64,000 bases of DNA from Ascidia mentula (taxonomy: Eukaryota; Chordata; Ascidiacea; Phlebobranchia; Ascidiidae), in NCBI GenBank assembly GCA_947561715.1, contig OX387201.1, positions 1,816,001 to 1,880,000 on the forward strand. The letters are read 5' to 3'. Both the position numbers and the translations under genes were made by a program. Under the pieces are notes generated by a model. That model was not told where the DNA came from, made no database searches, and saw only the letters and a program-made list of their open reading frames with translations. Below, piece after piece: positions 17,483 through 62,300 of this stretch (the first letter of the stretch is position 1; every line of letters starts with the position of its first letter).

Positions 17483-19822
17483 TTAAACCGAAAGGAATGA
17501 GTAAAGCTGATAAACGAAAAACGCAAAGACGGCAACCAGCACAAGCAGCGAAATCTTTGCTTCTCGTTCGACGCGTTTCACAAGATCATTCGTTTTTCGA
17601 TATTCTTCAAAGAGGTCCGCACCCTTGTTCTTGTGTGGGAATGGCTGGTCGGGTATTTCAGCTCCAAGGAAGTCACAGAGCGGTTTCCAACCGTCCGTCA
17701 CTCGGTAAATCAACAATCTGTCCTTGGGAGCCGTCTGCGCATTCAAAGTGGTGTTAATAGCGCGTTGATTGGCACCGGTTTAAAAAAATGTGATCATGTT
17801 TAAACATCTACATATGGAAACGATCTATGTTCCACATTGAAACGGCAAAAATACTCATTAGCTTCAATGGCGGTGTAAGCATTCATGTTCCAATATTTTT
17901 TAAAACATTTCGTGCAGCTTGCTGCCTTTTTTACCAAATTTCGCAATGGTAAGTGGAGACTAGTGATGTTCCCAGTTCCAAATTATCCGGACCGGCCGGA
18001 TCCGGATAGTTATCAATCAAATCCGGCCGGGTAATTTGGATCCGGCAGTTTGTTAACACCGATTCGTGTATTTTATCGGTATGTCAAAAATGTTTGATTG
18101 CCAAACAGAATGCTATGTTAAGGTTAGCTTATCATAAGTGGAACAAATAAACGTGGGCATTTATTAATATGGTATAACACGTCACGAAAACCTTGATAAC
18201 AAACATAAGAAAAATCGGAAGTCGGCGAGTATCACAGACCGGGTCCCAAAAACGAGCAATTTGCGAACGTTTGTCCGTTTTTAGGACAAAAATGCTTTCC
18301 CAACTATCCGGTAAAATTAAGTGTGTTATCCGGCCGGGTCCGGGTATTGAAAATTGGTCAATATCCGGCCGGGTCCGGGTACCCGGATCCGGCGTAAGAC
18401 ATCACTAGTGGAGACCCACCGTTTGAACGTACAAGTTGTGCTCCCTGTACAGTCTCTTTAGCGTGTTCTCATTGCGTAGAAACAACCCGGATCTCGGCCA
18501 ACTTTTCGTATCACCCAGGAACTTAACTGAAATGTGCAGCAAATGAATAAACTTAAAAGAGCGTTGCACAAATCATAAGGCTCACAGGCTTCACAGCCAA
18601 GGCATTGCAGTCTAGCTGGATCAGTCACTTTTCCCGACAAGTCGGAGCGAGAACTGAAAAATCAAGCTCTCGGTGAGGTTTAAACCCACGACCCTGGGCT
18701 AACCAGGCCCAACGCTCCACCAACTGAGTGGCTTCACGGGGTATATTGTGGCCAAGGTACACTGGTACGCAAGCGCACAACTTGTCGGGCGACCTTCACA
18801 TGCGTAGAGGACCTGCAGTGGGGTGATCCTGCCTTGCTATGCGAAAGCATGGTATTACTTCTGCGTTGCTCAAATCAAGCATATCCAAGGAAAAAGGATT
18901 GGTATGGAGAAAACCATTATTTGTTAAATAGTTTTGTAATAAGGTTCACAGGCTTCGCAGCCAAGGCATTGCAGCCAAGCTGGATCAGTCACGTTTCATA
19001 TGAACGAGATATGACATAGTTTTGTATTTGTAGAAATATTTCAGTAAGCTGCCAAAATGCCAAAATTATCTTAATTAGCTGCAGAGAGTTGTGCGTATAC
19101 TGTTTCGCCCTATCAGGTCTCATCATCAGTGCACGTGCATTTACGAAACAACATAATTGACTCTTACACATGTTGTTTCGATATCTACTCCTTCGTATTC
19201 CGGTCCAGGTAAGAGTGGACATCCACCACCACAACCAACTGCTGTTCATTTTTTTCATTTGTTTGTGGACGCTTTTGAACCATTCGTCTTCATCTCGTAA
19301 GCAAAGAATAATCTGAGCATGCAAGAATGGTGAAAAATGTATTTTTGATAATTGCAATTTGGGTCAGACTGATCAAATAGTGAGGCTATCGTTTCAAAAA
19401 GTGTTTGGAATCTCCATTTAATTCATATGTAATCGGCTTTTGTTTACATGAACCGAAACACCATCGTTTAAGCTGCAATTGATTGCCACATTCATCTCAC
19501 TGATTATTAATGCTGATACAATCGTTTGATTTAGCTCAAAAACCTATTGGAGCAAAAAATCAGCCTTTACTTTTGCCTCAGGAAAGGCTTCAGAAAATTC
19601 CTTCCAGTAATAAAAGCACGGGATGTCATTTACAGCATCAGCGCCTTCGTACATTCGTTCCAAATCACCAGGTTGAACGCCCTTCTCAAAGATTCTATTC
19701 CAATCTTCGTGCAAGACCAATAAATTTTCCAAATAGTCGAACACTTTGTAGCCAAGTGCGTGCAATGCGGCATGCATCGTCTTGGTGCCAGTTTTCGAAT
19801 AACCCGCCAGTATAACTTTCAT
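17483..19822 (-). CDS. Membrane-anchored sulfotransferase-like protein, unit E (4 exons)
   Basis: Exons: E1 19571-19822, E2 about 19169-19313, E3 18420-18526, E4 17483-17734; 251 aa. E1 has GYSKTGTKTMHAALHALGY, EDWNRIFEKGVQPGDLERMY and ends FPEAK. E2 starts IILCLRDEDEWFKS and carries a Trp run (SSWLWWWMSTLTW). E3 KFLGDTKSWPRSGLF...RLYREHNLYVQT. E4 APKDRLLIYRVTDGWKPLCD, PDQPFPHKNKG, a charged linker, and a terminal helix of about 20 hydrophobic residues. A 447-bp hAT-type MITE sits in intron 3 only a few bases from the exon 3 donor, and a SINE lies in intron 2. Splicing past these is assumed. Confidence 0.8.
17961..18407. mobile_element. hAT-type non-autonomous element (447 bp)
   Basis: Terminal inverted repeats TAGTGATGT...ACATCACTA and a perfect 8-bp target-site duplication GTGGAGAC at 17953-17960 and 18408-18415. 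The interior is rich in CCGG/GGATCC-like runs (sub-repeats of the type TCCGGCCGGGT) and has no long frame. It is absent from the matching intron of unit F, which gives the pre-insertion state. Confidence 0.85.
18560..18742 (-). mobile_element. tRNA-derived SINE, family 1
   Basis: Read on minus: a tRNA-like head with A-box-like CTCAGTTGGTGGAGCG and B-box-like GGGTTTAAACC, then a body (GAGCTTGATTTTTCAG, CGCTCCGACTTGTCGG) and a tail with GATCCAGC and GAAGCCTGTGAGCC. A second copy is at 53755-54025. Tail-only fragments occur at about 18945-18990, 22148-22195, 25885-25930 and 28714-28742, in the same intron of other array units. Confidence 0.7.
19085..19140 (-). repeat. Degenerate hammerhead-like repeat beside unit E exon 2
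   Basis: Contains CTGATGATGA, an imperfect stem II, GAAACAG and a final CTCTGCAGC on the minus strand. Equivalent, more decayed copies lie at about 22285-22330, 26053-26105 and 28868-28920, always just downstream of exon 2 in its unit, so the insertion predates the E-H duplications. Confidence 0.5.
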
Positions 19823-31687: not shown

Positions 31688-33631
31688 TTAAACCGAAAGG
31701 AATGAGAAGAGCTGATAAACGAAAAACGCAAAGACGGCAACCAGCACAAGCAGCGAAATCTTTGCTTCCTTTTCGACGCTTTTCACAATATCATTCGTTT
31801 TTCGATATTCTTCGAAGAGGTCCGCACCCTTGTTCTTGTGTGGGAATGGCTGGTCGGGTATTTCAGCTCCAAGGAAGTCACAGAGCGGTTTCCAACCGTC
31901 CGTCACTCGGTAAACCAACAGTCTGTCCTTGGGAGCGGTCTGCATTCAAAGTGTTAAAGGTACTTCGAATACAGTGAGTTGCTGACATGACCACTGTTTT
32001 GACCTAATAGGTCTCAGTGCAACTACAAACTAGTTTGGTACCCAATGGTTAATGGTGGCTGCATAGTCTCAACAATGTGGAAGTCTTGTCAGTTATTTAG
32101 TTGACAAGATTGTTGTATGTTTCACCATAGCTGCACTGATGAGACTTATTAGGTCAAAACAGTGTCCATGTCTGCAGCTCACCATAAAAAACATTATTGG
32201 CCATATTGCTTATACGTGCTTTAATTTGTCTTAAAGTTGGTTCTTTCTTCAATGAAAACACATAAAACTATCAATGCACCTCATTCAAAAAGTAAAAACA
32301 CTAAACCTTACATATACAAGTTATATATATATGTGTGTCCAGCATTCCAAAACATTTCGTGCCATTTGCAGTTTTTTATATCAAAACCGCAATGCTGGTC
32401 TGTGTCCACCCACCGTTTGAACGTACAAGTTGTGCTCCCTGTACATTCTCTTTAGAGTGTTCTCATTGTGTGGAACCAACCTGGATCTCGGCCAACTTTT
32501 TACGTCAGCAACGAACTTCACTAAAATGTGCGGCAAAAAATAAAGGTAAAAGAGCTTTGCAGGAACCACGAAAACCCAGAAATATAGGATTAGGATGGGC
32601 ACAAAATCCAAATGTATTATGCAGTATGGGTGGGTTATTCCAAAACGGGCATTAACAATACGTCTAAAACTACCAAACTGAAAGCATCTTACTAATATTG
32701 CTTCGAAATTTCTTTCTTCGTAATCCAGTCCAGGTTAGAGTCGTCATCACCCACAATAACCAACTGCTGTTCATTTGGTTCAATTGTTTGTGGATGCTTT
32801 TGAACCATCCGTCTTCATCTCGTAAGCAAAGAATAATCTGAGCATGCACGAATGGTTAAAATTTTGCTAGTGACAATCTTTAAATACGGATCGGACTAAT
32901 TAAAAGCATGTGACCTGAAGAAACGGGGTATTTAGTTTACACTGGTTACGTTTTGCATGCTTTAAGCTTGTGTACCACGAAAAGCATGCGATCCTATGCA
33001 CAACGACAAAAACGAGAAGGTTATGCTATGAACACATTAATGGGATAAAAATACACTGGGCGGTCAAATGTGATTAATGAATAAAAAACTGAATCGATTT
33101 AAAAACCAAAAGCCCCCTGACAGGCTGTCGATAGCACACCGTAGCAATATACGCATTCAAACTTCTTTTGCTTATAACTTAACGAAGACTTTATTGAAAT
33201 TATTTAACTGTGTTGTCGTGCAATAAAGTAATACTATAGAAATTCTTTAAATGTTGGTAAATACTGTGTTGACATCTAGGTAAAAAAAGGTTAATCTACT
33301 ATGTGTCAAGTTTATTATGGGGCATCTCATGTAATCCTGTTTTAACATCTATCAATTAAAAATATGATTTAAACTTCACCTTTGCTTCAGGAAAGGCTTC
33401 AGAAAATTCCTTCCAGTAATAAAAGCCCGGCAAATCGTTAACAGCATCAGCACCCTCGTACATTCGTTCCAAATCACCAGGTTGAACACCGTTCTCAAAG
33501 ATTCTATTCCAGTCTTCGTGCAAGTCGTAGAAATTTTCCAAATAGTCGAACACTTTGTAGCCAAGTGCGTGCAATGCAGCATGCATCGTCTTGGTGCCAG
33601 TTTTCGAATAACCAGCCAGTATAACTTTCAT
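31688..33631 (-). CDS. Membrane-anchored sulfotransferase-like protein, unit I (4 exons)
   Basis: Exons: E1 33380-33631, E2 32693-32837, E3 32414-32520, E4 31688-31939; 251 aa. Start chosen at the conserved MKVIL, although the frame is open for 12 more codons upstream (MVVFTADRQKDN). P-loop GYSKTGTKTM; E2 IILCLRDEDGWFKS; E3 VADVKSWPRSRLVPHNENT and RMYREHNLYVQT; E4 APKDRLLVYRVTDGWKPLCD, PDQPFPHKNKG, then the terminal helix. In E1 Gly replaces Cys in DLPGFYYW and Asn replaces Lys in IFENG relative to unit J. Confidence 0.85.
31978..32180. mobile_element. Hammerhead-terminated repeat element, decayed
   Basis: Both ends are inverted hammerhead remnants: left (minus) lacks three bases of CTGATGA; right (plus, 32124-32178) has CTGATGA, stem II GACTTATTAGGTC and the TGCAGCT stem I return, but GAAA reads AAAA. 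It lies in intron 3 of unit I and is copied in unit J (35450-35654). Confidence 0.65.
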
Positions 33632-35161: not shown

Positions 35162-37133
35162 TTAAACCGAAAGGAATGAGAAGAGCTGATAAACGAAAAA
35201 CGCAAAGACGGCAACCAACACAAGCAGCGAAATCTTTGCTTCCTTTTCGACGCTTTTCACAATATCATTCGTTTTTCGATATTCTTCGAAGAGGTCCGCA
35301 CCCTTGTTCTTGTGTGGGAATGGCTGGTCGGGTATTTCAGCTCCAAGGAAGTCACAGAGCGGTTTCCAACCGTCCGTCACTCGGTAAACCAACAGTCTGT
35401 CCTTGGGAGCGGTCTGCATTCAAAGTGTTAAAGGTACTTCGAATACAGTGAGTTTCAGACAGGACCACTGTTTTGACCTAATAGGTCTCAGTGCAACTAC
35501 AAACTAGTTTGGTACCCAATGGTTAATGGTGGCTGTATAGTCACCACAATGTGGAAGTCTTGTCAGTTATTTAGTTGACAAGATTGTTGTATGTTTCACC
35601 ATAGCTGCACTGATGAGACTTATTAGGTCAAAACAGTGTCCATGTCTGCAGCTCACCATAAAAAACATTATTGGCCATATTGCTTATACGTGCTTTAATT
35701 TGTCTTAAAGTTGGTTCTTTCTTCAATGAAAACACATAAAACTATCAATGCACCTCATTCAAAAAGTAAAAACACTAAACCTTACATATACAAGTTATAT
35801 ATATATGTGTGTCCAGCATTCCAAAACATTTCGTGCCATTTGCAGTTTTTTATATCAAAACCGCAATGCTGGTCTGTGTCCACCCACCGTTTGAACGTAC
35901 AAGTTGTGCTCCCTGTACATTCTCTTTAGAGTGTTCTCATTGTGTGGAACCAACCTGGATCTCGGCCAACTTTTTACGTCAGCAACGAACTTCACTAAAA
36001 TGTGCGGCAAAAAATAAAGGTAAAAGAGCTTTGCAGGAACCACGAAAACCCAGAAATATAGGATTAGGATGGGCACAAAATCCAAATGTATTATGCAGTA
36101 TGGGTGGGTTATTCCAAAACGGGCATTAACAATACGTCTAAAACTACCAAACTGAAAGCATCTTACTAATATTGCTTCGAAATTTCTTTCTTCGTAATCC
36201 AGTCCAGGTTAGAGTCGTCATCACCCACAATAACCAACTGCTGTTCATTTGGTTCAATTGTTTGTGGATGCTTTTGAACCATCCGTCTTCATCTCGTAAG
36301 CAAAGAATAATCTGAGCATGCACGAATGGTTAAAATTTTGCTAGTGACAATCTTTAAATACGGATCGGACTAATTAAAAGCATGTGACCTGAAGAAACGG
36401 GGTATTTAGTTTACACTGGTTACGTTTTGCATGCTTTAAGCTTGTGTACAACGAAAAGCATGCGATCCTATGCACAACGACAAAAACGATGAAGGTTATA
36501 CTATGAACACATTAATGGGATAAAAATACACTGGGCGGTCAAATGTGATTAATGAATAAAAAACTGGATCGATTTAAAAACCAAAGGCCCCCTGGCAGGC
36601 TGTCGATAGCATACCGTAGCAATATACGCATTCAAACTTCTTTTGCTTATAACTTAACGAAGACTTTATTGAAATTATTTAACTGTGTTGTCGTGCAATA
36701 AAGCATTGTCACATGTAAAATTGTTGGGGGTAATAATATAGAAATTCTTTAAATGTTAGTAAATACTGTGTTGACATCTAGGTAAAAAAAGGTTAATCTA
36801 CTATGTGTCAAGTTTACTATGGGTCATCTCATGTAATCCTGTTTTAACATCTATCAATTAAAAATATGATTTAAACTTCACCTTTGCTTCAGGAAAGGCT
36901 TCAGAAAATTCCTTCCAGTAATAAAAGCACGGCAAATCGTTGACAGCATCAGCACCCTCGTACATTCGTTCCAAATCACCAGGTTGAACGCCCTTCTCAA
37001 AGATTCGGTTCCAGTCTTCGTGCAAGTCGTAGAAATTTTCCAAATAGTCGAACACTTTGTAGCCAAGTGCGTGCAATGCAGCATGCATCGTCTTGGTGCC
37101 AGTTTTCGAATAACCAGCCAGTATAACTTTCAT
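35162..37133 (-). CDS. Membrane-anchored sulfotransferase-like protein, unit J (4 exons)
   Basis: Exons: E1 36882-37133, E2 36167-36311, E3 35888-35994, E4 35162-35413; 251 aa with the same borders as unit I. P-loop GYSKTGTKTM, DLPCFYYWKEF, IILCLRDEDGWFKS, SWPRSRLVPHNENT, YREHNLYVQT, VTDGWKPLCDFLG, PDQPFPHKNKG and a C-terminal hydrophobic helix are all present. E3 and E4 protein sequence is the same as in unit I. The downstream AATAAA of the sister units is changed here. Confidence 0.85.
35450..35654. mobile_element. Hammerhead-terminated repeat element, decayed (copy in unit J)
   Basis: Segmental copy of the element at 31978-32180 with the same disabled GAAA position. Confidence 0.6.
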
Positions 37134-38159: not shown

Positions 38160-39310
38160 GGCTACTATCAACACTACATAGCATGGACATGATGGGCCAC
38201 CCAAACGAAGTTCAGCAAATATACAACTTGATGCCCCACTGTGTTTGACAAGCCATGTACGGTCGGCTGCGTTTTTCACATTCGTCTGTGTTTCTGCTCA
38301 GTGGGCTGATAATAACCAAGTCCAATTGCCTTTTTCTTGCAGTCCTGTAAACTGAAACACCGGGTCTACGATCGTAGAATCACCTTGTCGTTAATTAATC
38401 AATGGATGAACTTGTTGGTATTCGGAGAAACTAACAAAAGGTTATAACAATCTCAAAGAGAAAAGCAAAAGTAAAAATTTGCCGAACAGTGTGGTATTGC
38501 AGAAGCTTATGTATATCTTTGCAATTTAGAAATTTTCTGGTTCTTTGCTCCAACTATCAACATATGACGTTATTAGTTTAATAAGGAACTTGCGATGCCC
38601 ACAGGGCGAAATATATCCTATACGTAAATTAACATTAAAAAATTATGTGGGGTTATGTGATGATCAAAAAGGTTTACACTTGGTATGCTTTAAGCTACAC
38701 CCCTACTATTTTTGGTTTCTAAACTGACATCGATTCGTTTTAATTTCTAAAGTCGCCTGCTGTTTCCAATTTAGAATGACAACTAGCCGAATCAACAGAA
38801 AAATCTAGCCCTAATTTTTTTTCAAACCCTAACGAATAAACGAAATATTAGCCAACAACCAAATAAGGCTGTCATCGAAATATATTAATGCAACTTAATA
38901 TATCATGGTACTTTCCCGTGAAGGGGATTTTTTTACAAAGTTCTGAGGATTTTTATTATTTGACCATTGTCATTTTAAAAGGATCGAAAAAATGCAAAAA
39001 CCGTTATTGAAAGTTCTGAATTTAAGCCTAATGTGAATTATTATTTTATGTAAAAATGCAACAATTTAATTTATTCACAAAAGGTATTGTGGTACAAATA
39101 TTTTTCTTTAACCTTTTTGACTTTTTGAGCTGAATAGGTAGACGTAAGTGGTAAAAAGAAAAAGAAGTGTTTCAGCTGTTTGTGAACAAGAATCTTGGAT
39201 AATGGATAACCCCAGGTTCAAAATTTTGGACGTTTTACCAATCAAACTGGATTAAAGGCTCCTATCTTTTGAATTTTTTTGTTAATGAGCATGTTTGAAA
39301 TTGTTTACAG
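38160..39310. other. Spacer between the sulfotransferase-like array and the Death/TIR genes
   Basis: The first 250 bases are a diverged copy of the array's upstream spacer. Beyond about 38450 nothing repeats and no exon is recognised, although the 5' exon of the following Death/TIR gene is probably in or before this stretch. Confidence 0.4.
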
Positions 39311-42300
39311 AGAAGAAGACAGAAAGAGAAAAATTTTCTATGAAATAATTGATGCAGTGAACAGCAAGCAATGGTTTGAATTTGTACGAAAGATTGGTGT
39401 CCCAGAAGCAACTTTGCAGAATGTTTGGGAGGGCCCTGAGCAAGTTTTAGAAAAGAAGTTTAAGTTGCTGAACGTTTGGAGCATGGAAACTAGTAAGTTG
39501 TGTTGGAAGCTTGAAGATTTCATGCTAGTGAGTGTCGGGTTTTTATTGCAAAAGCTCACCAAATACAAATTAAGTATGTGATTAACTAGCATTGTAATTG
39601 TTTGATCTTGGCCCTAAGATCCATTTGAGTGTAAATTAAGCGACAATAGGTTTGGGAAATATTCCCAGGGTTAAATTTAAATTATATTTTAGGTTCTTCC
39701 ACTGAAAATCAAAAACAAATGTTGGAAGGGGTAAAAAAAGAAATTTATGGTGACAGAAGCAGGGCATTGGACCACTTGTTTCATGTGAAACTCATGGAAA
39801 GTAAGTGCACTTGTAAAGTATTTGATTCACATAAACCTTTATAATAACCCACATATTTGCCGGGAGTAAATAAAGTTTGTAGCAAAATGGCCTAAGTGAA
39901 AAAAATTCATCACCAAATTGAAATATTTCATTATAGGAACAGCATGACGACCCACTTGTATTAAATATATAATATTATTACTAGGTTTAAATTGCTGCAC
40001 CTGAAGAAGCGAGATCAATCTCGCGAAAGCTCGTGCTAATAAAGTGGTTTCATAGTCAGTCCCTTATAAAAGCAGTGCACAAGCAAGCAATATATTCATA
40101 GGTTTATATCAAAAGTTTGAATCATGATGCTTTTGAGTCTTTTAAGAAATAAAATACATGTTATAAGCAGGTAAATAAACTGAAAGCTTTCATTACTGTA
40201 CCTAATATTTACCTGTGATTTTTACAAGTTTTAGAGATAAATGGCAGTAGTATGTTCATTGTTTGTTTTGCCTATTTTGACAGATCGTGAAAAGGCATGG
40301 CTTATGTATGAATTCATTTCATTTTATTCTGAAGAAGCTTACTGGCTTTCCAACATTGCCCGCCAGAAACTAAATATTCCAGAAAACAAGATCCAGCATA
40401 TCAGCAGAAACTTTAGTGGCAATTCTGCTGAAAGGAAATACCAGTGTTTGTTGTTCTGGTGTGGGCGGGATGGCCTCGGTTTGTCTAAGTTAATGTTTCT
40501 CAAACGTAACAAGCTGTTTACAAGCATTGAGCCAATAATGCATGTTATGTTATTGTATTTATGGCCCATTAGATTTACAATGAACTAAACCAGTATAAAA
40601 GTAGTATTTTAAATACTACTTACTGTATTTAAATACTGTATTTAAATACATAAAAACAATTAAAAAATACATTGCATATGATTTATAGTTGCACCAAGTT
40701 CACAAAAATATGTTTCCATTTATCAACAGACACATGGCAAACAATTGTTGAAGGATTTACATCCTTGGAGTTGCATGTTCCAAGAGATTTTAATTTTGGT
40801 GCCAGAAGACAGCAAGTTGAAATGCCAACACAACACCAAGGTTCATTTGTATGATGCTAAATTCATTTTTTAAACTATTTCGTTCAGATCAGGTTGATGG
40901 GGGCACAGTGGTTGAAAGTCCGACAGCTGTTGTCGAAACTGCCGGAGGAGGTTAGAAATTGTGTTATTTCTGTAGGCTATACTTTGATGCATAACATGTA
41001 ACGTATGGAACTATATGAAACTTTTGTGTCTCCTACAAACAGAATAAGAAATGATGATGTTGTTTTTAGCGAAACATGTATCATAAAATACACTGTGTTG
41101 AAGAAAACCTTAATTATTGTTCTATGTCATTATGTTTATGTGAAAATCTAGTTTCTTAACATGGTATAATAAAAGTGATTTTTTTCAGGAGACAATATGG
41201 AAAATCCCAATCAGGTTAAAGTCTACATGCTTGATTAAAATGTACACATCTTTTAAGACCGATTTGTCTTTACAGGTGACTTCTCAAAAACTGTGTATAA
41301 TGTTCAGCTACTGCCATCAGCACCCAGAAATTCCTCGTGATGTGAGTGAACCAAACATGTTTATTGTAATTTTCCATTTAAATGTTTTTGGCCTTAAAAA
41401 AAATTCCTGTCGAAAATACTTTTAAACAAATTACTTGGTATGACCATGAATGTAACTATTTAAGTCAGTGGTTCTCAATCATTTTGCACTTGCAGTTTTG
41501 TAAAATTTCAAACAACTGAAATGTAATAAACCTAACAGATTATAAAAAAAAATATGACTGTCGGAAAAAATTAACCAGGACAGGCACTAGTCCGTCGACT
41601 AACAGTTAAGAAACACTAATTCCAGTTTTGATGAATTTTAATAAACTTATCACTAGCTTGCCACCATATCCACAAATAAATGTAGTTTAAAAGGTTAGTT
41701 ATGGCAGTTATTACAGCAAGCCAATTCTACCAAACTGATAATATAAATTCTCATGTTTTTTATTCAGATGGCAAAACATGTTCTCGCAAACCACAGGGAT
41801 AAATACTGTGTTTGGATTGATGAAAAAGATATCAGCGGAAAGCTGTTTAACTCAATGGCTGACGGCGTTGAAAGATGTGACATTTTTCTGATGTTTGTTT
41901 CTCAAGCATATCAGGATAGTGAAAACTGTCGCATGGAAGCAATAGCTGCCCAGAAGTCAAGGAAATTGATTATTCCAATAAAAGTGGAGAAAGGATTTAG
42001 ACCAAGTAGCTGGTTAGGTAAATCTAGTACAATGTCCACTTCCTTTTTGTTAATGCAGATTTGTTTTTTGAAATTTCTGTTTACACAAATAGTATTATTT
42101 TGTCCAGTCAAGAAACTTCACCTTTGAAGTTGCAATAAGGCTTGTATTTAAAAGTGATTACTACTATTTGCTCATAGCCTGTATTACTGATCATGGTTGC
42201 ATACAAATAATGAAATAAATGCCTGCAGTAAAGCAAACAAAATGTTCATTGTTACAGGTTTGTTAATGCAAGACTACAAGTATTTTGACATGACAAAAAT

Positions 42301-42367
42301 TCCATTTGAGGAAGGCATAAGTGATGTCCTCAGGGAGATTGACCTTAGGATTAATGATGAGCACTGA
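39311..42367 (+). CDS. Death-Death-TIR protein (9 exons seen, 5' end not found)
   Basis: Exons: 39311-39492, 39693-39800, 40284-40478, 40730-40840, 40888-40950, 41189-41214, 41276-41341, 41768-42017, 42258-42367 (stop). All phases agree, giving 369 codons. Exons 1-2 and 3-4 each encode one Death-like domain (helix motifs WFEFVRKIGVPEATLQ and WLSNIARQKLNIPENKI, then KYQCLLFWCGR). Exons 5-6 are an acidic linker. Exons 7-9 are a full TIR domain: strand KLCIMFSYC, loop YCVWIDEKDISG, CDIFLMFVSQAYQDSENC, RMEAIAAQ, LIIPIKV. The YxxSxxCxxE spacing matches NAD-cleaving TIRs with Glu as candidate catalyst. Likely a cytosolic innate-immune or cell-death adaptor/enzyme. The first exon starts in phase 1, so at least one upstream exon is missing, unless translation begins at an in-frame ATG near 39279. 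Confidence 0.82.
39985..40075 (+). repeat. Hammerhead-like repeat tail in intron 2 of the Death/TIR gene
   Basis: CTGAAGA at 40001, a 7-bp stem GCGAGAT/ATCTCGC, GAAA, then GCTCGTGCTA. The order copies a minimal hammerhead with very short stem III, but the core has A where T is required (CTGAAGA for CTGATGA) and stem I is not evident. Possibly a decayed ribozyme of a retroelement tail. Confidence 0.35.
41465..41618. mobile_element. Possible hAT-type MITE
   Basis: Ends CAGTGGTTCTCAATC and GTTAAGAAACACTA are approximate inverted repeats of a common hAT type. Flanking octamers ATTTAAGT and ATTCCAGT agree at 6 of 8 positions. Lies in the intron between the two first TIR exons. Confidence 0.4.
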
Positions 42368-42454
42368 TATTACAGCTAAAAGAATATGCAGAGTATGTAT
42401 GGTGGGTAGGCCTAAGTTCTTCAATAATACTGTCCAAAGATATACAAATTTCTC

Positions 42455-42596
42455 TACAACAATGAGCATATAATCACTAGTCACCACAAAGTGGAAGTCT
42501 TTGCTTGGCCGTTTGGTCAGCAAAGTCGTCTTATTGTCACACCAGCTGCACTGATGAGACCTTTTAGGTCGAAACAGTGGCCATCTGTCTGCAGCT
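42455..42596 (+). mobile_element. Half of a hammerhead repeat element
   Basis: The body (CACCACAAAGTGGAAGTC, TTGGCCGTTTGGTCAGC) matches the interior of the element at 11747-12083 and leads into an intact ribozyme. The left terminal ribozyme is missing. Confidence 0.6.
42544..42596 (+). ncRNA. Type I hammerhead ribozyme (best copy)
   Basis: Stem I AGCTGCA (42544-42550), core CTGATGA (42551-42557), stem II GACCTTTTAGGTC (42558-42570), GAAA (42571-42574), stem III CAG/CTG with a 7-base loop (42575-42587), TC (42588-42589), return strand TGCAGCT (42590-42596). Stem I pairs over 7 bp without mismatch and stem II over 5. Predicted cleavage follows C42589. Every conserved core base is present. It lies 177 bases after the stop of the Death/TIR gene on the same strand, so it could be in the 3' UTR. 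Confidence 0.85.
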
Positions 42597-43045
42597 TATA
42601 CACAATTTATAATCACTTTGTTTGGGAAACGAACTTTGAAATTTATCAACTTTAATACGTTCTGTATAAATTTTTTCAATTTCTGTGCTTGACTTTTTAG
42701 CTTACTTTTTATTTTTAGGTCTTCCTGAAAAATCATGAGACAGAAGTACTCCTGTTGAATATTGTGTTTGGTGATCAGGACTGAACAATCCTATTGTTTG
42801 CATGTTCCATTTAATGGTGTGCCCTTTCCTTCAAAAACGCATGTCCTGTTATTTTATGCCGATAATGCCCTATATTTTATCCAGCGATGAAAAACTTTTT
42901 GCGTTGGAATTGTTGTCTTTCCTGGGCTTTTATGGATGTTCTATTTCCTACATTGTTTTTGTACGTTTTTTATGATTCTGTAATACAAATGCAATGACAC
43001 ATTTATTACGACCTTATTATAACAAAATAACTAACAAATATTTTT

Positions 43046-43125
43046 CTCAGTTGTGGTTCGCATTGATATGGTGGTTCGCATTGATGTGGTGGTTCGCATT
43101 AGGTGTATATGGTTCGCATTAATGG
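43046..43125. repeat. Short tandem repeat, about 20-bp unit
   Basis: Four imperfect copies of TGGTTCGCATTGATATGG-like units. Confidence 0.75.
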
Positions 43126-44339
43126 GCGGATACACACAGTAAAACTTTAAATCGTTGCGCATTGATAGCGTTTAGGTGCTAAACAGCTAATGTCTTAGAC
43201 CAAAACACACGAGTGCGACGAACCAAAATAAATTTAAGAAAAACCCTTTTGGATCAGCATGTGTTTCGCAACAAGTTAAATAATTTTCCCCGGCCATCTA
43301 CAAGCAACCAACACAACAATATACGCCCAATTTCGCCAGTATATTTGTGTAAAAATTTGTGGAAGCTCCTGTTACTCAAGTGTAATTACAAAAATGAAGT
43401 CAGAATCCAGTATTGGATATGGTTTTGTTTAAATTTTTTTTTTGCCCACGTGAGCGTCAAAATATCTCAATACGCCATGTAACAAAAAATCATTCACTGA
43501 AAATGTCCTGAAAGAGTACGCAATTCGAAAGTAAGGGTTTTCAGGAATTAAAACATTTCCAAGCACAAATCTAAAAAATGAGCACGATATAGCAATTAGC
43601 CACACCGGTTTTAGCACTGAAAAATCTGGTTGAATATCTTGTGACGTCATATCGTGTAAAAGCGGAACAAACAGCACAGCACCAAAAAGCGGAACCAATG
43701 AAAATACTTCACCGGGACATTTGGGTCCAATTCCAACCATTTTGAAGATAAAACGGTAACTTGACGGGTATACGTCTCTGCTGGCAAGGTAGCTTTGGTG
43801 TAGTACAATGTTTAAAAAACATAGAAACAGATTATTTGAGTCTGTATTACAGACTACAGACTCTGTAAGCAACATTTGTCACTGATAGAACTTGCTTGTT
43901 TTGCGTCTGTTTCAAACTGGAAAAGGCAACGTCCAACACAGATATAGTTCAGTGACAGGAGAAAGTGTCATGGAGATAAAGAACACGATTTTGGAACCTA
44001 TTTTCATGCCTTTAATAAAACTTTTGTTTTTTAGGTTCACAAATTGTTTTGATAGATATTCTGTTTTGGGCGTGCTTACTTTATTATATATACAATCAAA
44101 GGATGGAGTAAGTGTATTTAATTGTATATATGTTGGGTATCACTAACCTATATTGGTGCAGCATAATGTTTTGTTTTATTTTTTTTGTAATATGTTCATT
44201 AGTAAACATGTATAATATCAGCCCTCCTACCAAACGTTTCTGTAGTCATGTTAATGGTAAATTTAAAACCTTAACCAGATTTCAATTCCTGATGTTTCAA
44301 ACAAAAAAGTGCAATAGTTACAATTAAATGTTGTTCCAG
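43126..44339. other. Interval upstream of the second Death unit
   Basis: No domain recognised. A minus-strand open frame of 148 codons (43429-43875) is long for this base composition but has no homologous copy, no splice partner and no motif I know; a start exon of the downstream Death gene may also lie here. Confidence 0.3.
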
Positions 44340-51674: not shown

Positions 51675-53160
51675 CTGTAACAAAGTTCCTACATTTAGGG
51701 TCATTTTTCTTGACTTATCACCATTCAGAGCGCCCCTGACAAACAAATAGTGCGCTTCCCTTCCTGGTTTACAACAACATTCAACCATAAACAATTGACA
51801 AATCCATATGAATACAAGTAAAAATTTTGCCTCGTATCGGAAGCTCATTGACATATGAGTTCTAGTTATCTCATTTGAGATCTTCTATACTGTTGCGAAA
51901 ACTAGTCAGAAGATTTTATTGCTTGCTCGCGCACAATGTTACGCATATTTAAAACACTTAAGGCCTACAAAGCTTGGCGAAAAGCTGTTCTCGTTAAAGT
52001 CCTTGACGTTCCACACAAAAAAACGATTGATTTTTCATGAAAACACTTTTTCTGAGACAAGAGAAAAAATATTGAACAGATGTTTGGACTTCTTCTTAGG
52101 ATGGAGGTTAGTTGGGTTATTGGATCTGCACTTGTTCCACCTCCTCAAATAGAAGCTGAAAAAAAACACGTCATATATTTAAATGACGTTGCTGTTTAGC
52201 GAAACAAATTTTTCTTGATTCCTTGGAAAAACACATTTTCCGATTTTCGTTTCTAACTTTGGAAAAACAAGTTTTCATTAAGGCCGCATCTCTCAATTAA
52301 ATCCTAAAAATTGAGTTTTAGAAGTCATTTGTTATTGTGCACCTGTTACAGTTTCTCTTGTTTGCCAAAAACAATCGCCGGGTCTGATGACTCATGAAGG
52401 GGGCTACTATTGCTGAACAGAAAAAAAATTGATTGCAGCTGCATTAAGACAGCACATTGGGGGGTTTTGCAAAGGCTAACTGCTAAATTGTCAGTCCTAG
52501 GGGGTGTACAAATAGCCCCGGTGGGGCCCCAAGACAATTACAAGACATCTAATTCTTCATGAATTGTGTAGAGGAGGGTTGGTGGCTTCACTTAATCGCA
52601 AATGGAGGTAACTTTCTGTGATTCATTTTTTCACAAAACAAACCTACACTTTTTTCTGCTTTTTTGACCAAAATAATGGCCAACAGAGGGTCAAAATGCC
52701 CCCGGGGGAGCAGTTTAAGTAGTTATTTTGATTATAAATTTGGCCACAATTCCTTGCCAAGGGTCCGCACTAACAGAAAATCACAAATTGAACATACATT
52801 CTGTGATTCATTTTTTCACAAAATCAACCTCAATATTTGGGTAGTTTTTCAGCTACATGTACAACAGCACCCTCTACCAATTTACTGCCTGACTAATAGC
52901 CCTGAAAAACAAACTAAAACTGCCCCAAACACGCTGAAAATCGCCCTGGCAACAGCCTGTTCATCTGCGCTCATTCAACCAAAACACTGGCGCCCATGCA
53001 TGACCCATTGCATTGTTACACATAATTTTACTCTGTTACGCAGGACAGAGTTCGAGAAGGGCAATTCCCAACCGGGAAAGTCTTTTCCATAGAAATACAG
53101 AGATGCGGCCTTAAATGTTATCAGTAGGAACACGTGGAAATTGTTGTGGTCGTTTAAATA
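51675..53160. repeat. Duplicated segment R, copy 1 (interrupted)
   Basis: Positions 51675-52281 and 53115-53160 together match 54030-54675 at roughly 90%. The gap is exactly the piggyBac-like insertion at 52282-53110. Confidence 0.75.
52282..53110. mobile_element. piggyBac-like non-autonomous element (829 bp)
   Basis: Inverted ends GGCCGCATCTCT...AGAGATGCGGCC flanked on both sides by TTAA (52278-52281 and 53111-53114). The paralogous segment at about 54628 has a single TTAA at the same point and nothing inserted, which proves the boundaries. The 142-codon plus frame inside (52664-53092) has no transposase motif. Confidence 0.85.
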
Positions 53161-53237
53161 GATGCACAGTGCCCACAATTAGTTTTCAGAAGCACGGTGC
53201 CCACAATTGGTTTTCATATGCACAGTGCCCACAATGG
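53160..53237. repeat. Three degenerate copies of a 28-bp minisatellite
   Basis: Units of the type GCACAGTGCCCACAATTGG; the same satellite is expanded at 55668-56162. In the intron next to CCP exon 14. Confidence 0.7.
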
Positions 53238-53320
53238 TTTTTTTAGAGAAAGTATACCCATAATGGTGTGGTAAAGGAACGCACTGAAACGTGACTTTTG
53301 AATAAAATTGAAACACTTAC

Positions 53321-56300
53321 GTATACATTTTCCAAATGGCACAGCGAGTGTCCCTGGAGATACACATAGGCTTCGGGCAAGACCGTCCAGTACATAACCA
53401 TCTTTGCAACCGACAGTAAAAGGCGAGTTAATGGGGAATAACGTAATTTCCGGCGGAACGAAGAAACCGTTCTCTGGGGGCGTTGGGGAACAACTAGCAG
53501 GTGGTGGTGGTGGTGACGGTGGTACAGAACCTAAAACAGCAAGTCGTACTAAAATAGTCAACTGACTTTTGTAACCTTTTTAGGACGCATATTGATATTT
53601 CTATGAAAATAAGTTTTGGTGCTGGGAAATGCCCACCGTGTAGAAATGCCCACCAAGCAAAGCAGTGATGCATTTAACTTTAATTTATGGTTGAATGAGC
53701 GCACATGTGCGTTCTGTTGTCATGGCGAATTTTAGGGTGTTTGGGGCAGTTTTTGTGGGCTCAGTTTGTAGAGTGTAGGGCGTGGTTAGCCCAGGGTCGT
53801 GAGTTTAAACTTCACCGGGAGCTTGATTTTTCAGATCTCGCTCCGATTTGTCGGAAAAAGGGGCTGATCCAGCATGCAGCCGTTTCGCACCGGTTCTATA
53901 GAACCGTCTCACGAAATTTATGAGATCAGCGAACCGGTTAGCATTACGTGGGACTGTCAATGGATTTTGTAACAGAACCAAATGAAAAATATGCAATGCC
54001 TAGGCTGCGAAGCCTGTGAACCTTGTGTTTCCACATTCAAGGTCATTTTTCTTGACTTATCACCATTCAGAGCGCCCCTGACAAACAAATAGTGCGCGTC
54101 CCTTCCTGGTTTACATCAACACTCAACCATAAAAAATTGACAAATCCATATGAATACAAGTAAAACTTCTGTCTCGTATCGGAAGCTCATCGACATATGA
54201 TTCTAGTTGTCTCATTTGAGACCTTCTGTACTGTTGCGAAAACTATTTAGAAGATTTTATTGCTTGCTCGCGCACAATGTTACGCACATTTAAAACATTT
54301 TAGGCCTACAAAGCTTGGCGAAAAGCTGTTTTCGTTAAAGTCCTTGACGTTTCACACAAAAAACGATTGATTTTTCATGAAACACTTTTTCTGAGACAAG
54401 AGAGAAAATATATTGAACAGATGTTAGGATTTCTTCTTTGGATGGAGGTTAGTTGGGTTATTGGATCTGCAGTTGTTCCACCTCCTCAAATAGAAGCTAC
54501 AAAAAACACGTCATATATTTAAATAAGACAATGACTTTGCTGTTCAGCGAAACAATTTTTTCTTGATTCTTTGAAAAATCACGTTTTCCTATTTTCGTTT
54601 TTAACTTTGGAAAAACAACTTTTCATTAAATGTGATCTGTAGCAATACGTGGAAATCGTTGTGGCCGTTTGAATATAATGGGGAAATAATAATCTATGAG
54701 CTGCAATGCTTTACTGTCGTGCTGACTATTCAGTATAGATATTGCTAGTTTGGTGGCTTTTGTATTTCACTTTCGTCTGAGTGTAAAAAAAATATTGTTT
54801 AAAATCGCGTTGTTCAAAAACAAGACCATACATAAGTGTTATTATTTTAAAATAATTCTAACATTTTTGTCTAACGTTCTCGCATACCACCTAGGTACCT
54901 TCTGCGTACCTTTAGTGGTTCGCGTACCATCGGTTGGGAACCACTGCCGTAGATAGAGTAGCTTAAAGAGATGAAAGTTTTTTCTCTGCTTTGTGCAGAT
55001 TACTTACGAACGCATGTCGGTGGGTCGACAACAAAATTGGTGGATGAAGTGCACATATTGATCGTCGGACCGACCAGATTGTAACCGTCATCACATTCGT
55101 ACTCAAAAACGATACTGATAGGGTACTCCGTCTGGGCTCTCGGCTTCACGTATCCATTGACTGGATTGACCGGAACGCATACGGTTGGGGCAGGGGGCTG
55201 AATAACTGAAATTCGGGGTCAAGGTTCAAAGACGAGCTTCGCTACCCAGCCAGAAGGAAACATGAACTTATGCAGTGGTGGGATTCAGCCGGTTCGCACC
55301 GGTGCTATGGAACCGTCTCACGAAATTTTATGAGATCAGCGAACCGGTTAGCATTACTGGTTACTGTCAATGGATTTTTGTAACAGAACCGGCTGAAAAA
55401 TATGACTTTTGTGATTGAACCGGCTGACAAAAAATTTAAATCCCACCACTGAACTTATGTGTTTGGAGTTGAAACAGCAAAACCACTCACTAATTATTGC
55501 ATTTTTTTCTTCCAACAGGTCGTCGGCATTATGTTTTTCGGGTATCTCGCTCTAATTGGAAAAGTATGTTTGACCCAGGTTGGCTACGATACCACTGTAA
55601 GTTATTGTAACCTCTGTACTCCCTTTATATCCCCAGGTAGAGATATCAGAAAAGGTTGTATTGGTTTTCAGATGTACAGTGCTCACAATTGGTTTTCAGA
55701 TGCACAATGCCTGCAACTGGTTTTCAGATGCACAATGCCTACAATTGGTTTTCAGATGCACAATGCCTACAATTGGTTTTCAGATGCACAATGCCTACAA
55801 TTAGTTTTTAGATGCACAATGCCTTCAATTGGTTTTCAGATGCACAATGCCTACAATTAGTTTTTAGATGCACAATGCCTGCAATTGGTTTTCAGATGCA
55901 CAATGCCTACAATTGGTTTTCAGATGCACAATGCCTACAATTGGTTTTCAGATGCACAATGCCTACAATTGGTTTTCAGATGTACAATGCCTACAATTAG
56001 TTTTCAGATGCACAATGCCTGCAATAGGTTTTCAGATGCACAATGCCCGCAATTGGTTTTCAGATGCACAATGCCTGCAATTGGTTTTCAGATGCACAAT
56101 GCCTGCAATTGGTTGTCAGATGCACAATGCCCACAATTGGTTTTCATATGCACAGTGCCCACAATGGGATTTTTCGAGAAAGTATACCGACAATGGTGTG
56201 ATAAAGGAAGGCAGTGAAACGAGTCTTTTGGGTAAAATTGAAACACTTACGTATACATTTTCCAAATGGCACAGCGAGTGTCCCTGTAGATACACATATG

Positions 56301-59300
56301 CTTCGGGCAAGACCGTCCAGCACATAACCGTCTTTGCAACCGACCGTAAAAGGCGAGTTAATGGGAAATGACGTAATTTCCGGCGGAACGAAGAAACCGT
56401 TTTCTGGGGGCGTTGGGGAACAACTAGCAGGTGGTGGTGGTGGTGACGGCGGTACAGAACCTAAAACAGCAAGTCGTACTAAAATAGTCAACTGACTTTT
56501 GTAACCTTTTTATTCAATCATGTTTAACAGTTTACGCTCTTACTGTTCATTACAACGCCAAGGAGTCGAATACCCTAACCCAAACAGTTGGTTTAACAAA
56601 ATAAATAAAAAATGCCGCAAAACTACCCATGTTGTCGGACGTGTTGACCTACCTTCGCAAACTGGCAGCGCGCCCTGTACGACTCCGTTAAGCCCGCACA
56701 CCTGTGACCCCACAGTTACGAAAACAAATCCCAAGTCGCATTCAAATACGATGAGATCCCCAGTTTGCCAGAGGGTCTTTCCAGGCGGAAAGATTTGCGC
56801 ATTGGCAGGCACTTGCACGTTGGTGCAAGTTTGTGGTGGTGGTGCCACTGTTGTGGTTGCGTCTGGTGGAGGAGGTGAGGCAGCTGCGTGAGAGTTATAC
56901 ATAGTAATAGGGCGAATGTGCACGCCGCTTACAAGTTCATTTTGCGAAAAATTTGACAGACAAAATATCGGTTCTAAATATTTTCAAGATTAGATACTGT
57001 GTCATAATATTGCAAAGCTGCAGACAGGGTGTGTACACGCACTGTTTCGACCTGTAAGGTCTCATCAGTGCAACTGTGTGATTGGTAATGTCTTAAAATT
57101 TAACCTGAATTTAGAAATTTCGGACAAAAAATGCATAGCAGATAGTAACAGAGTAGTAATAACAAAACTAATCATCAAAATGAATGACAATTTTTTTCCA
57201 TACGTTCACAAACAGGCAGGTCGCCCAGAATTGCTCCGTTAGCTCCACAGATTTGAGAGCTGCTCCCTCTAAACTCGTACCCCGGGTTGCACTGGAAGTT
57301 TATCAATTCCCCTATTTGCCAAACCGCTTGGCCCACTGGCACAGTTCTGCCCATAGCAGGAGCCTGGATGTTGGTGCAGGTAACTGGTGGCCTGTTTTCT
57401 AAAAGGTGTAATGTTGTTTATTCAAAAAGGAATTTAACGCAAAGCACGAATTCGTTTGACCAAAACTGATCTCCTGCCAAAATTGAACGCACTTTTTCTT
57501 CTCCGACGTTACGTCAGTCAGACAGCGAAACTTCATCAGGGTATAACACCGCAATTCAAACGTTTAACCACACAACATTCAACGGCATAAAATAAAAAAG
57601 AACACGCTATCACCGCTTGTGAAATATGTCTTAATATTTGCTATGTTTTGCTTGTGCATGGACATCATTGGCATCGCTGAAAAACAACGATGTTTTGAAC
57701 AACCAGAAATTCAGGTTTAATATGGATGTTCGACCATAATTAAATTTTAAATTTTTGTTCAATTTGGTAAATCCGCATGTGGCATGGGGTTGGTCGATTA
57801 CTGCCAATATTGCTTATAGACGCCATTACCGTTGTCGGTGTATAAATAGACGACTTACCAACGCAAACGGTGTCATGTGATGAGAATAATCCATTTGAAA
57901 GGCAAACAGCACCTCCTGAACCTTGTCTAGTGTATCCAGAGTTACATTGGAATGTCACAGCTTCGTTTACGTTCCATGAAGTCTTACCAACAGGAAGAGA
58001 GAAACCGTTAGGTGGCGTTGTAGGGTTCGTACACATCACAGACGGAGGCAAAATGGCTGGAAAAAAGATGGTGTAGTAGAACCAATTGCACTTGGTATGT
58101 GTAACACCTGAGGTATTTAATACCGTACTAAAAAATCTTACCAACAGTTTAAAAATTATAGCTTTTTATAATGGTCAGATATTTTGTCTAATAGACGACT
58201 TACCACCAACACAAACGGTGTCATGTGATGAAAATAATCCGTTTGAAAGGCAAACAGCACCTCCTGAACCTTGTCTAGTGTATCCAGAGTTACATTGGAA
58301 TGTCACAGCTTCGTTTACGTTCCATGAAGTCTTGCCAACAGGAAGAGAGAAACCGTTAGGTGGCGTTGTAGGGTTCGTACACATCACAGTCGCTGGAAAA
58401 AATATGGTGAAGTGGCGGGTTATTGGCGGCATTGGTCAAGCGCCCGACCCGTGAACAAAGAAAAGAAAACCTGATCGGGATTCGCGTCCAGGATATCCTG
58501 GGTTCCAACCCCGGTGTGGTCCAAAAAAAATGATAAAGTAGAACCAATTGCACATGGTATGTTTCCCATTCGACTTTTTTAATAACGCATTTAAAAAACC
58601 TTACCAACAGTTTAAAAATTATTGCTTAAACGAAAGTCATATATTTTGACCAAGTAGACCAGGGTTTCCCAAAATTTTTTGGCCTCTAACCCCTATTTGT
58701 GATCTTGCTTTTTCACAGACCCCCTATCTTATGCCATCAATTGTTTCGACCAATCGTCTCAACCTTGACCAGTATTTTGTCTTGCGTTTAAAAATGTTTT
58801 CAATATTCTATTTTCATTTAAAGTTAGAGACTTTGCACCTAATTCCACTTAACAGTTTAATCACACAATTAAGCTCCACCGTAATTTCACTTTACTTCAC
58901 CCCTCAGACTCCAAACAAACTTTCACTTTTCAAACTCAATTACACTTCACGAAATTCTTGTACGCGAGAAGAACGGCTAATACGGCAACTCTACAGGCGA
59001 TAAGTCTAAATTATTACACCATAGACGTGGTATAAGACGTAATTGGAACCAACTTTTGAATATTAAATAGGTCAAAAACCATTAAAGATTGCGAAAACTA
59101 ACTAATCAATGCGACAATTTTATGTGACTGTGTACGTACTGTTTGCAATACATCAGTTTGATTTTGTTGCAATATCGTCAAGGGACCCACTGTGCAACCT
59201 TCACGGAACACCAGTTATGAAACCCCTGAAGTAGACGACTTACCACCAACACAAACGGTGTCATGTGATGAGAAAAATCCGTTTGAAAGGCAAACAGCAC

Positions 59301-62300
59301 CTCCTGAACCTTGTCTAGTGTATCCAGAGTTACATTGGAATGTCACAGCTTCGTTTACGTTCCATGAAGTCTTGCCAACAGGAAGAGAGAAACCGTTAGG
59401 TGGCGTTGTAGGGTTTGTACACATCACAGACGGAGGCAAAATGGCTGGAAAAAAGATTGTGAAGTGGAACCAATTGCACTTGGTATGTGTAACACCTGAG
59501 GTATTTAATACCGTACTAAAAAATCTCTTACCAACAGTTTAAAAATTATAGCTTTTATAATGGTCAGATATTTTGTCTAAAAGACGACTTACCAACGCAA
59601 ACGGTGTCATGTGATGAGAATAATCCGTTTGAAAGGCAAACAGCACCTCCTGAACCTTGTCTAGTGTATTCAGACGTACATTGGAATGTCACAGCTTCGT
59701 TGACGTTCCATGAAGTCTTGCCAACAGGAAGAGAGAAACCGTTAGGTGGCGTTGTAGGGTTTGTACAGGTCACTGTTGGACCAACCGCATCTGTCACAGT
59801 AAAACGAAATGCATGAAATGATTGCTTACTGATACATCCTTGCAGCACTGGATTAAATCGACGCAGCCTTTTGATCAGGCTGTGACACGGTCGTGGCGCC
59901 TACCGATATTTCAATATCACTGCGGTACTTACCACAAACAGCAAGAGCTCCACTGAACCTCCCGTCCTCGTTACATCGTACAGTTGAAGGCCCTCTCAAC
60001 ACGTAACCGGCCAAGCACCCAATCTGCAACGTTTGTCCGGGAAGAAACAGTCTTTGTGAGCCGGTGTTAAATCCGTTTACTGGGAGTACCGGGTTGCTGC
60101 AAGTGACGGGTGCAACTGGTTGATCTCCTCCGAATGGCACTGAGAAGGGATTTGTAAGCTTTAACATTGTGAAACGAATTTCCAAGTTTGGTAATTACGG
60201 TGACGATTTTTCCTATTAAATGCTATTGATTGCTGCTTTCAGTTTTTAGACTTTGGGCGGCATTGTATTCAAAATGTACTGCTCTTCTGGTATAAACGTC
60301 GTAAAATACAGTACGTTTATGCCAGAAGAGCAGTACATTTTTAATTGCAATATGCCTGGCAGCAACAGGAATTTGACATTGTATTAATTTAATTTGATAA
60401 AGAAAACTAAAACATCGATGCATCAAGTCAGTTACTTACGGAGACAGTAGGGAAACGGACTCGAATAATCCCCGCTTGCCAGACACGTTAGTACAGCATC
60501 CCCGAACAGAGTAATGCCCGTGTTACAAGAAAACGTCACCGTATCGCCAGGTGCGCGCCGTGCAAGTGGATCCTTGTCAACGGAAATACCCGTGGAGATA
60601 ACTGGTGGCGGGCACACCAGAGGTGCTGCGAAATGTACAAATTAATTAAACGTCGTTAAAAAAACACTCTGCATGAAATCGAATTCGCCCCTGCAATAGT
60701 CCTGCCCATAAGTTCAATTGTTTTTATGTTTCTGCTTCGATATTATCGGTATTTTCATACATACCACCGCAGACTGGAGGTGGGTTGCTGTAGCGTCCGT
60801 CCCTTTGACACACTGACTGGCTGCTCCCACTTATGGGGAATCCCGGGTTGCATGTATACGTCACTCTATCCCCGAATCTCCACTCCGTTCTCTGTTCGTT
60901 TATTACTCCGTTTACTGGAGCTACAGGAGGTGGACAGATTGCCCGCGGAAGCACCGGAATCGCTGCGTAGCATTGAAAGGGTTGACGCTTATTGATCGTG
61001 CGGTTTGTAGTCATGAGCCTGACTAATCAGAAGGGGACGATAAAATTTTAACAATATATAAAAAAGTGGAGTCTATAATATATGATTTCAGTGAGCTGCA
61101 GACAGATAGACGTTTGGTCCGCAAAGTCGTCTAAGAGTGACACCAAGCTGCACTGAGACCTTATAGGTCGAAACAGCGGCCATCTGTCTTCAGTTACTGA
61201 AAACTGTTATAGTGTGCCAGAGTAAAATTACTGTAGTTTACTGCTGCAATATTTTTGACATACTGACCACTTATAGACCAGAGATTGACACAGAGTATTG
61301 TATAAATTGAGTGAAATGAAGCCCATAGTATGCTTAGTTTGTTGTAAAATGGGTGCTAAACATATGTCAATTAAACTGGAGCCATCAGACTGTGTATGCG
61401 GTTTGTGACTTACGAGGATTTACGAGGTTAGTGACTTACGAGGATTTACGAGGTTTGTGACTAACGAGGATTATATTTGTCACGATACCTTTAATACTTA
61501 AATTTTTTCTCGCAGAGCAGTATTGTCCCAAAACATTCGAGACGATATTGTTTTTTTTATCGTTGTTGACAATCTAATTTATCGTTACTCGCTAATAATA
61601 CTGTACCTTCGCATATGGTATTGTGTGAAGTAAAAACCCCATTCGCCAGGCAGGTTGAGCTTCCTACACCTCGAATGTTATACCCAGAGGCACACTGGAA
61701 TGTCACAACACCACCCACGTTCCAAGAGGTTACACCAATAGGCAATGTAACGGCATTGGTTGGAATTCTTGGGTTAGCACACAGCACCGCCACCGGTGGC
61801 CTTGCGGTCGCCCGAGCTAAAATCGGTACAGACTTTGTTAAAATTTATGCGTGTTTTTATAATCAAAGAATCTTCGCCAACGATCGTGTGAGGACATTTT
61901 TATATTCAAGATTCTGTTTTGGTTGGAAGGTCTCTTGGATTCCATCAATGATAGTGTTACAAAATCGTGTGACTTGACTGACAAACAAGCAATCAAACTT
62001 ACGGATGCAGGTAGGAATCGATGAGGAGAAAGTCCCGGATGCTGTACATTGGGCTGTTCTCACTCCACTCAACACAAAGTTCCCGGCACAGGAAAAAGCG
62101 ATGCGTTCTCCAGCCGACCAAACTGTTTTCCCCGGCGGCAGAGCCCTCAGGTTGGCAACCGCTGGCAGGGCGCAAGTGGCTCTTACCGGTACCTCTACGG
62201 GCCAGGCTGCGAACAGAGCGTTTACGTATTACACCTGGGGCGTTGTAGGTGAAGTTGGGAGTGTTTATTCGGTGTATGCGACACATAAGCACGTTCATCC

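Follow-up and report, generated by a model that had tools for sequence, protein, structure and literature searches.

Results

Gene and hammerhead motif in the window

The window (the whole stretch of DNA analyzed here; 64,000 nucleotides) contained several gene parts on its plus strand: a Death domain in the open frame 39273-39578 (Pfam E-value of 2e-5; 25.0 bits with a cut-off of 22.6), another Death match, below the threshold, in the open frame 40241-40585 (E-value of 0.0035; 17.9 bits with the same cut-off), an exon fragment with a TIR_2 domain at approximately 41774-42019 (E-value of 1.3e-12), and the last exon of the TIR gene at 42257-42367 (inferred bounds), which gave no Pfam match alone and ended with a TGA stop codon at 42365-42367. 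The Death-Death-TIR gene proposed in a sequence-only reading of this region was therefore plausible, with one Death domain and the TIR domain passing Pfam, but the second Death domain did not reach the cut-off. As that reading had also noted, a hammerhead motif starting at 42544 followed closely after the stop codon on the same strand.

This type I hammerhead ribozyme (42544-42596, plus strand; 53 nt) was read by eye and then parsed and aligned as AGCTGCA-CTGATGA-GACCT(TTT)AGGTC-GAA-ACAG(TGGCCAT)CTGT-C-TGCAGCT, with an open stem I of 7 bp (AGCTGCA/TGCAGCT), a stem II of 5 bp (GACCT/AGGTC; 3-nt loop TTT), and a stem III of 4 bp (ACAG/CTGT; 7-nt loop). The hammerhead core was complete, and 16 of the 16 pairs in the stems were standard, confirming the claim of an intact type I hammerhead with no stem mismatch. 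Cleavage is predicted after C42589 (42589/42590, plus strand), the cleavage base in the hammerhead architecture. A loose core pattern gave 5 matches in the 64-kb window (0.44 expected), among which that at 6657 is probably a chance match.

No match was obtained when the whole window was searched with Rfam at the gathering score, and the best hammerhead with a lax threshold (41500-43500) was the type III model: 27.2 bits (cut-off of 48.5) and an E-value of 0.0046, spanning 42531-42580 in a register different from the type I parse. The covariance models, to which the sequence-only reading had looked for confirmation, thus did not provide it and, since the score was below the gathering cut-off, the ribozyme was assigned by its core and stems, and not as an Rfam match.

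In nearest-neighbor energies, which do not include tertiary stabilization, a non-hammerhead fold masking part of the core (-17.4 kcal/mol) was slightly preferred over the hammerhead (-16.0 kcal/mol), and a stem III pair was present in approximately 4% of the modeled ensemble (likewise without tertiary terms). The stability of the fold in this region was ordinary (z of -1.55). With regard to the loop-loop tertiary contacts of fast canonical hammerheads, loop II consisted of 3 nt, and a loop in stem I was not evident by eye; mussel retrozymes lack most of the contact bases (PMC7229834). Judged from its anatomy, the ribozyme is likely to be active, and this putative activity could be slow.

Retrozyme insertion carrying the ribozyme

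The ribozyme lay at the 3' end of a copy, itself truncated, of a 285-bp unit. Positions 42478-42605 showed 96.1% identity with unit positions 157-285, the end of the unit coincided with the end of the insertion, and 53 of the 53 ribozyme positions were equal to those of the unit. This one-ended, 5'-truncated retrozyme insertion (42478-42607, plus strand; 130 bp), with a short untailed 3' end, was bracketed by a perfect 9-bp target-site duplication, TATAATCAC, at 42469-42477 (where the match extends one base into 42478) and 42608-42616, and its insertion point was approximately 110 bp downstream of the stop codon. The reading of the ribozyme as an element of the TIR gene was not supported; it is part of a retrotransposon insertion of the dispersed kind, which has a target-site duplication of its own, and its intactness can be explained by youth of the insertion (identity with the unit at all ribozyme positions).

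Unit-like sequence was found at eight places in the window. An older head-to-head insertion at 11748-12146 consisted of an inverted arm and a near-full unit with a tail, and had a 15-bp target-site duplication. Two old head-to-head fragments, at 31977-32179 and 35451-35653, probably represent a local duplication because they had the same flanks, approximately 3.47 kb apart. A hammerhead fragment (12914-12961) and a weak retrozyme-like fragment (19074-19125; 76.9%, E-value of 1.4e-4) were on the minus strand, together with a partial retrozyme of another subfamily whose hammerhead had a longer stem III loop (57040-57081); a fragment with a gapped ribozyme core was located on the plus strand (61111-61193). 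The window also contained 28-bp tandem repeats at 55660-56173 (18.3 copies; overlapping a 167-codon open frame) and 53160-53241 (3.0 copies).

Retrozyme family in the genome

The genome of the window (195.8 Mb; 79 contigs) contained 761 exact copies of the 25-nt core CTGATGAGACCTTTTAGGTCGAAAC (392 forward and 369 reverse), and a looser motif with free loops gave 2042 matches (1020 and 1022, with some sites counted twice); the reversed-motif control gave 0 and 0 matches. The 285-bp unit was arranged in tandem arrays at L009, L010, and L013 and in head-to-head pairs elsewhere, and contained no long reverse transcriptase (RT) or GIY-YIG frame. As a circle, strong pairing was predicted (-88.9 kcal/mol), and none of 100 mononucleotide shuffles were as low. 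This element is a metazoan retrozyme, a kind already known. Among the stem-pair cells of 47 distinct aligned copies, 666 were unchanged, 47 were broken, 16 were changed on one side, and 5 were changed on both sides with the pair kept. Dispersed copies decay, as expected of relics of active sources. Covariation, considered as support for the fold, was uninformative in this young family.

Several variant copies were observed. In L004 and L005 (local position ~1260), the ribozyme was missing between the stem I repeats, with CACACCAGC joined to TTACACAA; this loss was perhaps caused by a jump of the reverse transcriptase over the folded ribozyme. Nine of 80 arms (e.g., L003, L006, L007, and L014) started at or beside the first base of stem I (unit positions 222-227), some of which were minimal copies of approximately 62 bp with the ribozyme and end alone. 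No enrichment of 5' breakpoints was found at the cleavage site (unit positions 269/270) in the 80 arms, a search that arms as short as this would escape.

Ends of retrozyme insertions

Retrozyme elements with an intact 25-nt core were selected from contig C1 and the window: 61 were found (L001-L028, L069-L094, and the window), and 60 were examined, one being too near the end of its stretch. A target-site duplication of at least 8 bp was detected in 31 of the 60 elements and not in the other 29, whereas mismatched left and right flanks gave one of this length in 0.7% of 1177 pairings. Counting L004 and L005 once, as a single insertion whose surrounding DNA was duplicated, left 30 duplication-bounded elements. 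Their ends were assigned by duplication-anchored alignment with a score cut of 22; random flank pieces had a 99th percentile of 18.5 and a maximum of 65 (perhaps a piece holding an element).

Twenty of the 30 elements were two-armed. In 19 of these, one end was short and the other tailed; the exception (L028) had an internal left end. The short end was located within 8 nt of ...TTATACACAA, and the tailed end 28-39 nt farther; the tail assignment of L081 was weak (score of 25). If end types were independent at one half, the probability of 19 one-short-one-tailed elements in 19 would be 2e-6. The ten one-ended elements comprised seven with a short end, including the window copy, and three with a tailed end. 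No poly(A) tail was seen at the retrozyme ends listed.

The same two classes were obtained by a method independent of duplications, in which the 3' ends of 63 terminal ribozymes were measured past ACACAA: 30 fell within 0-12 nt and 23 within 20-36 nt, with none at 13-19 nt, and 10 had no assignable end. Ten clusters had both ends assigned in this analysis, and every one of them combined one end of each class. The short end of L010 was at 12 by this method and at +5 by anchored alignment.

Regarding the junctions between arms, none of the 21 listed were within 10 nt of symmetry, the filter having excluded arms that start at unit positions 1-60 (L004, L005, and L071); two of the 21 were in duplicated window DNA, and some had one arm consisting of the tail alone. 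By eye, the junctions of L004 (= L005) and L071 were near-palindromic, approximately 10 and 6 nt off symmetry, respectively, and those of L018 and L072 had a difference of only 11 nt.

Penelope-like elements in the same genome

Penelope-like loci were recognized by a GIY-YIG match. At least 121 such matches were present (150 of 382 candidates scored), at least 19 of which were in frames of 700-892 amino acids (hand count), and many were ordered head-to-head or in tandem. Twenty regions were fetched, giving 19 stretches (L049 and L050 were joined), and the end structure was assessed in 13 of these after L051, L060, and L068 (lacking a 60-bp inverted repeat), L059 (self-palindrome only), and L062 and L066 (self-palindromes, or arms located at the end of the stretch) were dropped. 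Duplications of 12-15 bp were found in 11 of the 13 loci and not in L058 and L063; mismatched pairings gave at least 12 bp in one of 156. All 11 duplication-bounded elements, which represented four families by eye from their end sequences, had exactly one tailed end (tail of 23-42 bp), for which the probability would be 5e-4 if end types were independent at one half. The median duplication was 12 bp in both the retrozyme and Penelope-like sets, and the A+T content of the duplications was 78 and 82%, respectively (61% for the window).

No Penelope-like element found in this genome shared sequence with the retrozyme start sites. Unit matches in GIY-YIG loci (L030 = L062, L037, L048, and L068), considered as candidates for an autonomous partner, were degraded or of insufficient length to be judged. 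When L029-L068 were scanned with a strict type I hammerhead motif, no match was obtained, and none was obtained in the reversed controls. In L062 and L066, a CTGATGATGAAC...GTTCGAAAC motif resembled the minimal Penelope type; motifs of the form CTGATGATGAAC...GTTCGAAACGTTT beside GIY-YIG matches (L062, local position 1932; L066, local positions 3680 and 8332 on the minus strand) resembled minimal Penelope hammerheads with a start codon at stem II. A Penelope-like array at G000:C67:6134028-6146916 contained two minus-strand and three plus-strand GIY-YIG frames with a spacing of 2870 bp per arm, and its almost identical head-to-head arms suggest that it is probably young. The genome also contained two GH6 matches (G000:C71:8046784 and C52:18248788), which would fit a tunicate host.

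TIR paralogues

Thirty other TIR matches, some of which were exons of one gene, showed 30-47% identity to the exon in the window. Five paralogues were fetched: L096-L099 by similarity, and L095 for an adjoining listed hammerhead. In L096-L099, no hammerhead was found in the 1.3-1.5 kb following the TIR match. A further TIR gene, L095 (G000:C1:2319600-2320900), carried an independent same-strand retrozyme insertion (local positions 886-1061), which started 48 bases past the stop codon and had an intact hammerhead and its own 12-base duplication (read by eye). When the 18 TIR matches on contig C1 were compared with the genome motif list, L095 alone was followed by a motif on the same strand in the next 3 kb. 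Two TIR genes with same-strand insertions just past the stop codon could hint at more than chance; given the copy number, some retrozymes must land after genes.

Discussion

Ribozyme and the TIR gene

Location of the ribozyme in the 3' UTR of the TIR gene, as suggested in the sequence-only reading, is possible because no poly(A) hexamer (12 kinds) separates the stop codon from the ribozyme, and eight were found within approximately 1 kb 3' of it (TATAAA at 42665, AATACA at 42982, AGTAAA at 43138, AATAAA at 43227, and four more up to 43600); on the other hand, there was no sign of selection for this placement. As a working part of the 3' UTR, the ribozyme would cut the mRNA and shed the poly(A) tail, lowering expression, possibly with the involvement of a masking factor. 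Its intactness and sense orientation, the arrangement of hexamers, the alternative fold hiding part of the core, and the independent insertion in L095 are all consistent with such a role, for which the atypical hammerhead of Clec2 3' UTRs provides a precedent (PMC6155905). However, the ribozyme sits in an insertion of a high-copy element, dispersed copies of this element decay with nearly no compensation, and the four paralogues L096-L099 had no hammerhead in the stretch examined, which makes this role very unlikely. Any effect on the TIR gene would be a by-product. Considered as a switch of an immune gene, the finding is probably unremarkable, amounting to a mobile element beside a gene. The Rfam score below the gathering cut-off may also be taken to indicate a chance resemblance to a hammerhead; the hundreds of identical copies and the absence of matches in the reversed-motif control leave this reading with almost no probability.

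Proposed origin and insertion mechanism

We consider it probable that the hammerhead in the window is the end of a truncated retrozyme copy, which probably landed there by chance, and that this copy arose by Penelope-type insertion from a closed or multimeric template. In the proposed process, tandem units would be transcribed, hammerheads would cut the RNA into units, and a host ligase would close them into circles, as published for animal retrozymes. Penelope-type machinery would then cut both strands of an AT-rich target approximately 12 bp apart, and each free end could then serve as a primer on the retrozyme RNA, from either of two start sites located approximately 30 nt apart and just past the ribozyme. 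When both ends prime, the two cDNAs would be joined head-to-head, leaving one short and one tailed end; when a single end primes, a one-ended copy would result, such as that in the window. The start sites were located between 16 and approximately 55 nt downstream of the putative cleavage site (unit positions 269/270), and copies continued through this site; therefore, the template appears to be a closed circle or uncut multimer rather than a cut linear monomer. The outer ends suggest priming from both free ends, with one start site for each, and the joining of two independent cDNAs is less certain.

The end asymmetry that 19 of 20 two-armed retrozymes have in common with 11 of 11 duplication-bounded Penelope-like elements supports insertion by Penelope-type machinery. 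Alternatively, the retrozyme could be inserted by an ordinary LINE through twin priming, since LINEs also yield 5'-truncated and inverted copies with target-site duplications of similar length. However, in 19 of the 20 two-armed retrozymes, both outer ends were 3' ends, at two sites separated by approximately 30 nt, the ends listed had no poly(A) tail, and the asymmetry was shared by all 11 duplication-bounded insertions in a comparison set that consisted of Penelope-like elements; insertion by a LINE is thus unlikely. Head-to-head copies may also be formed by self-priming on an antisense transcript, rather than by two-ended priming, as proposed from palindromic junctions for Penelope elements of rotifers (PMC3846280). 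The near-palindromic junctions of L004 (= L005) and L071 and the small difference in L018 and L072 are in line with this proposal, but none of the 21 listed junctions (a list without L004, L005, and L071) were within 10 nt of symmetry, and in 19 of 20 elements the start site of one outer end differed from that of the other, so that we regard self-priming as improbable here.

We give an even chance to the reading in which Penelope-type machinery inserts animal retrozymes by coupled priming at both ends on a circular or multimeric RNA; the partners in a single enzyme complex would each take a different start site, and every two-armed insertion would therefore have exactly one short and one tailed end. 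The Penelope protein of Anolis cuts and extends both strands, and two adjacent internal start sites explain the tail (PMC11167929). Penelope-like elements were already proposed as strong or likely candidates for the mobilization of retrozymes on indirect grounds, namely co-occurrence, a shared ribozyme type, and tandem copies (PMC7229834 and PMC7761336). The ends of sister copies bear on the identity of the enzyme by which retrozymes are spread in animals. Both kinds of elements have a common duplication length, AT-rich targets, a head-to-head form, and the one-short-one-tailed rule, and this rule suggests a way in which the two ends of an insertion are coupled. If the coupled reading is true, the retrozyme would be a trans-mobilized partner of Penelope-like elements, and its ends would record the reaction. 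One-short-one-tailed ends were not found to be reported for retrozymes in the open-license papers searched.

Comparison with known systems

The ribozyme in the window resembles the discontinuous hammerhead of mammalian Clec2 3' UTRs (PMC6155905) in its possible location, the 3' UTR of an immune-type gene; in contrast, it is type I, continuous, and inside a retrotransposon copy, and no sign of conservation was seen in this one genome. Similarity in sequence organization was found with the metazoan non-LTR retrozymes of Cervera and de la Pena (2020; PMC7229834), namely a type I hammerhead in each tandem unit of 150-450 bp, thousands of motifs per genome, target-site duplications of more than 4 bp, and coexistence with Penelope-like elements (here, candidates with GIY-YIG matches); the strong pairing predicted here for the unit as a circle is another point of likeness. 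Two-armed head-to-head insertions in which one end is short and the other tailed are not described in the text consulted.

Among Penelope-like elements with pLTRs, those of Adineta vaga (PMC3846280) and PAc of Anolis (PMC11167929) share head-to-head inverted terminal repeats, short target-site duplications, and AT-rich targets with the retrozyme. In A. vaga, a tail of approximately 31 bp is optional at one inverted pLTR end, and antisense self-priming was favored (PMC3846280). Unlike the minimal hammerheads described for Penelope elements (PMC7761336), the ribozyme of the retrozyme has a stem III of 4 bp. Unlike Penelope-like elements, with which no common sequence was found, the 285-bp retrozyme has no long RT or GIY-YIG frame, and for this reason it was classified as probably mobilized by Penelope-like elements, and not as a member of them. 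The Penelope-type insertion signature (inverted ends, one tail of 30-40 bp, and a duplication) was present in 19 of the 20 two-armed copies, beside which the copy in the window is one-ended.
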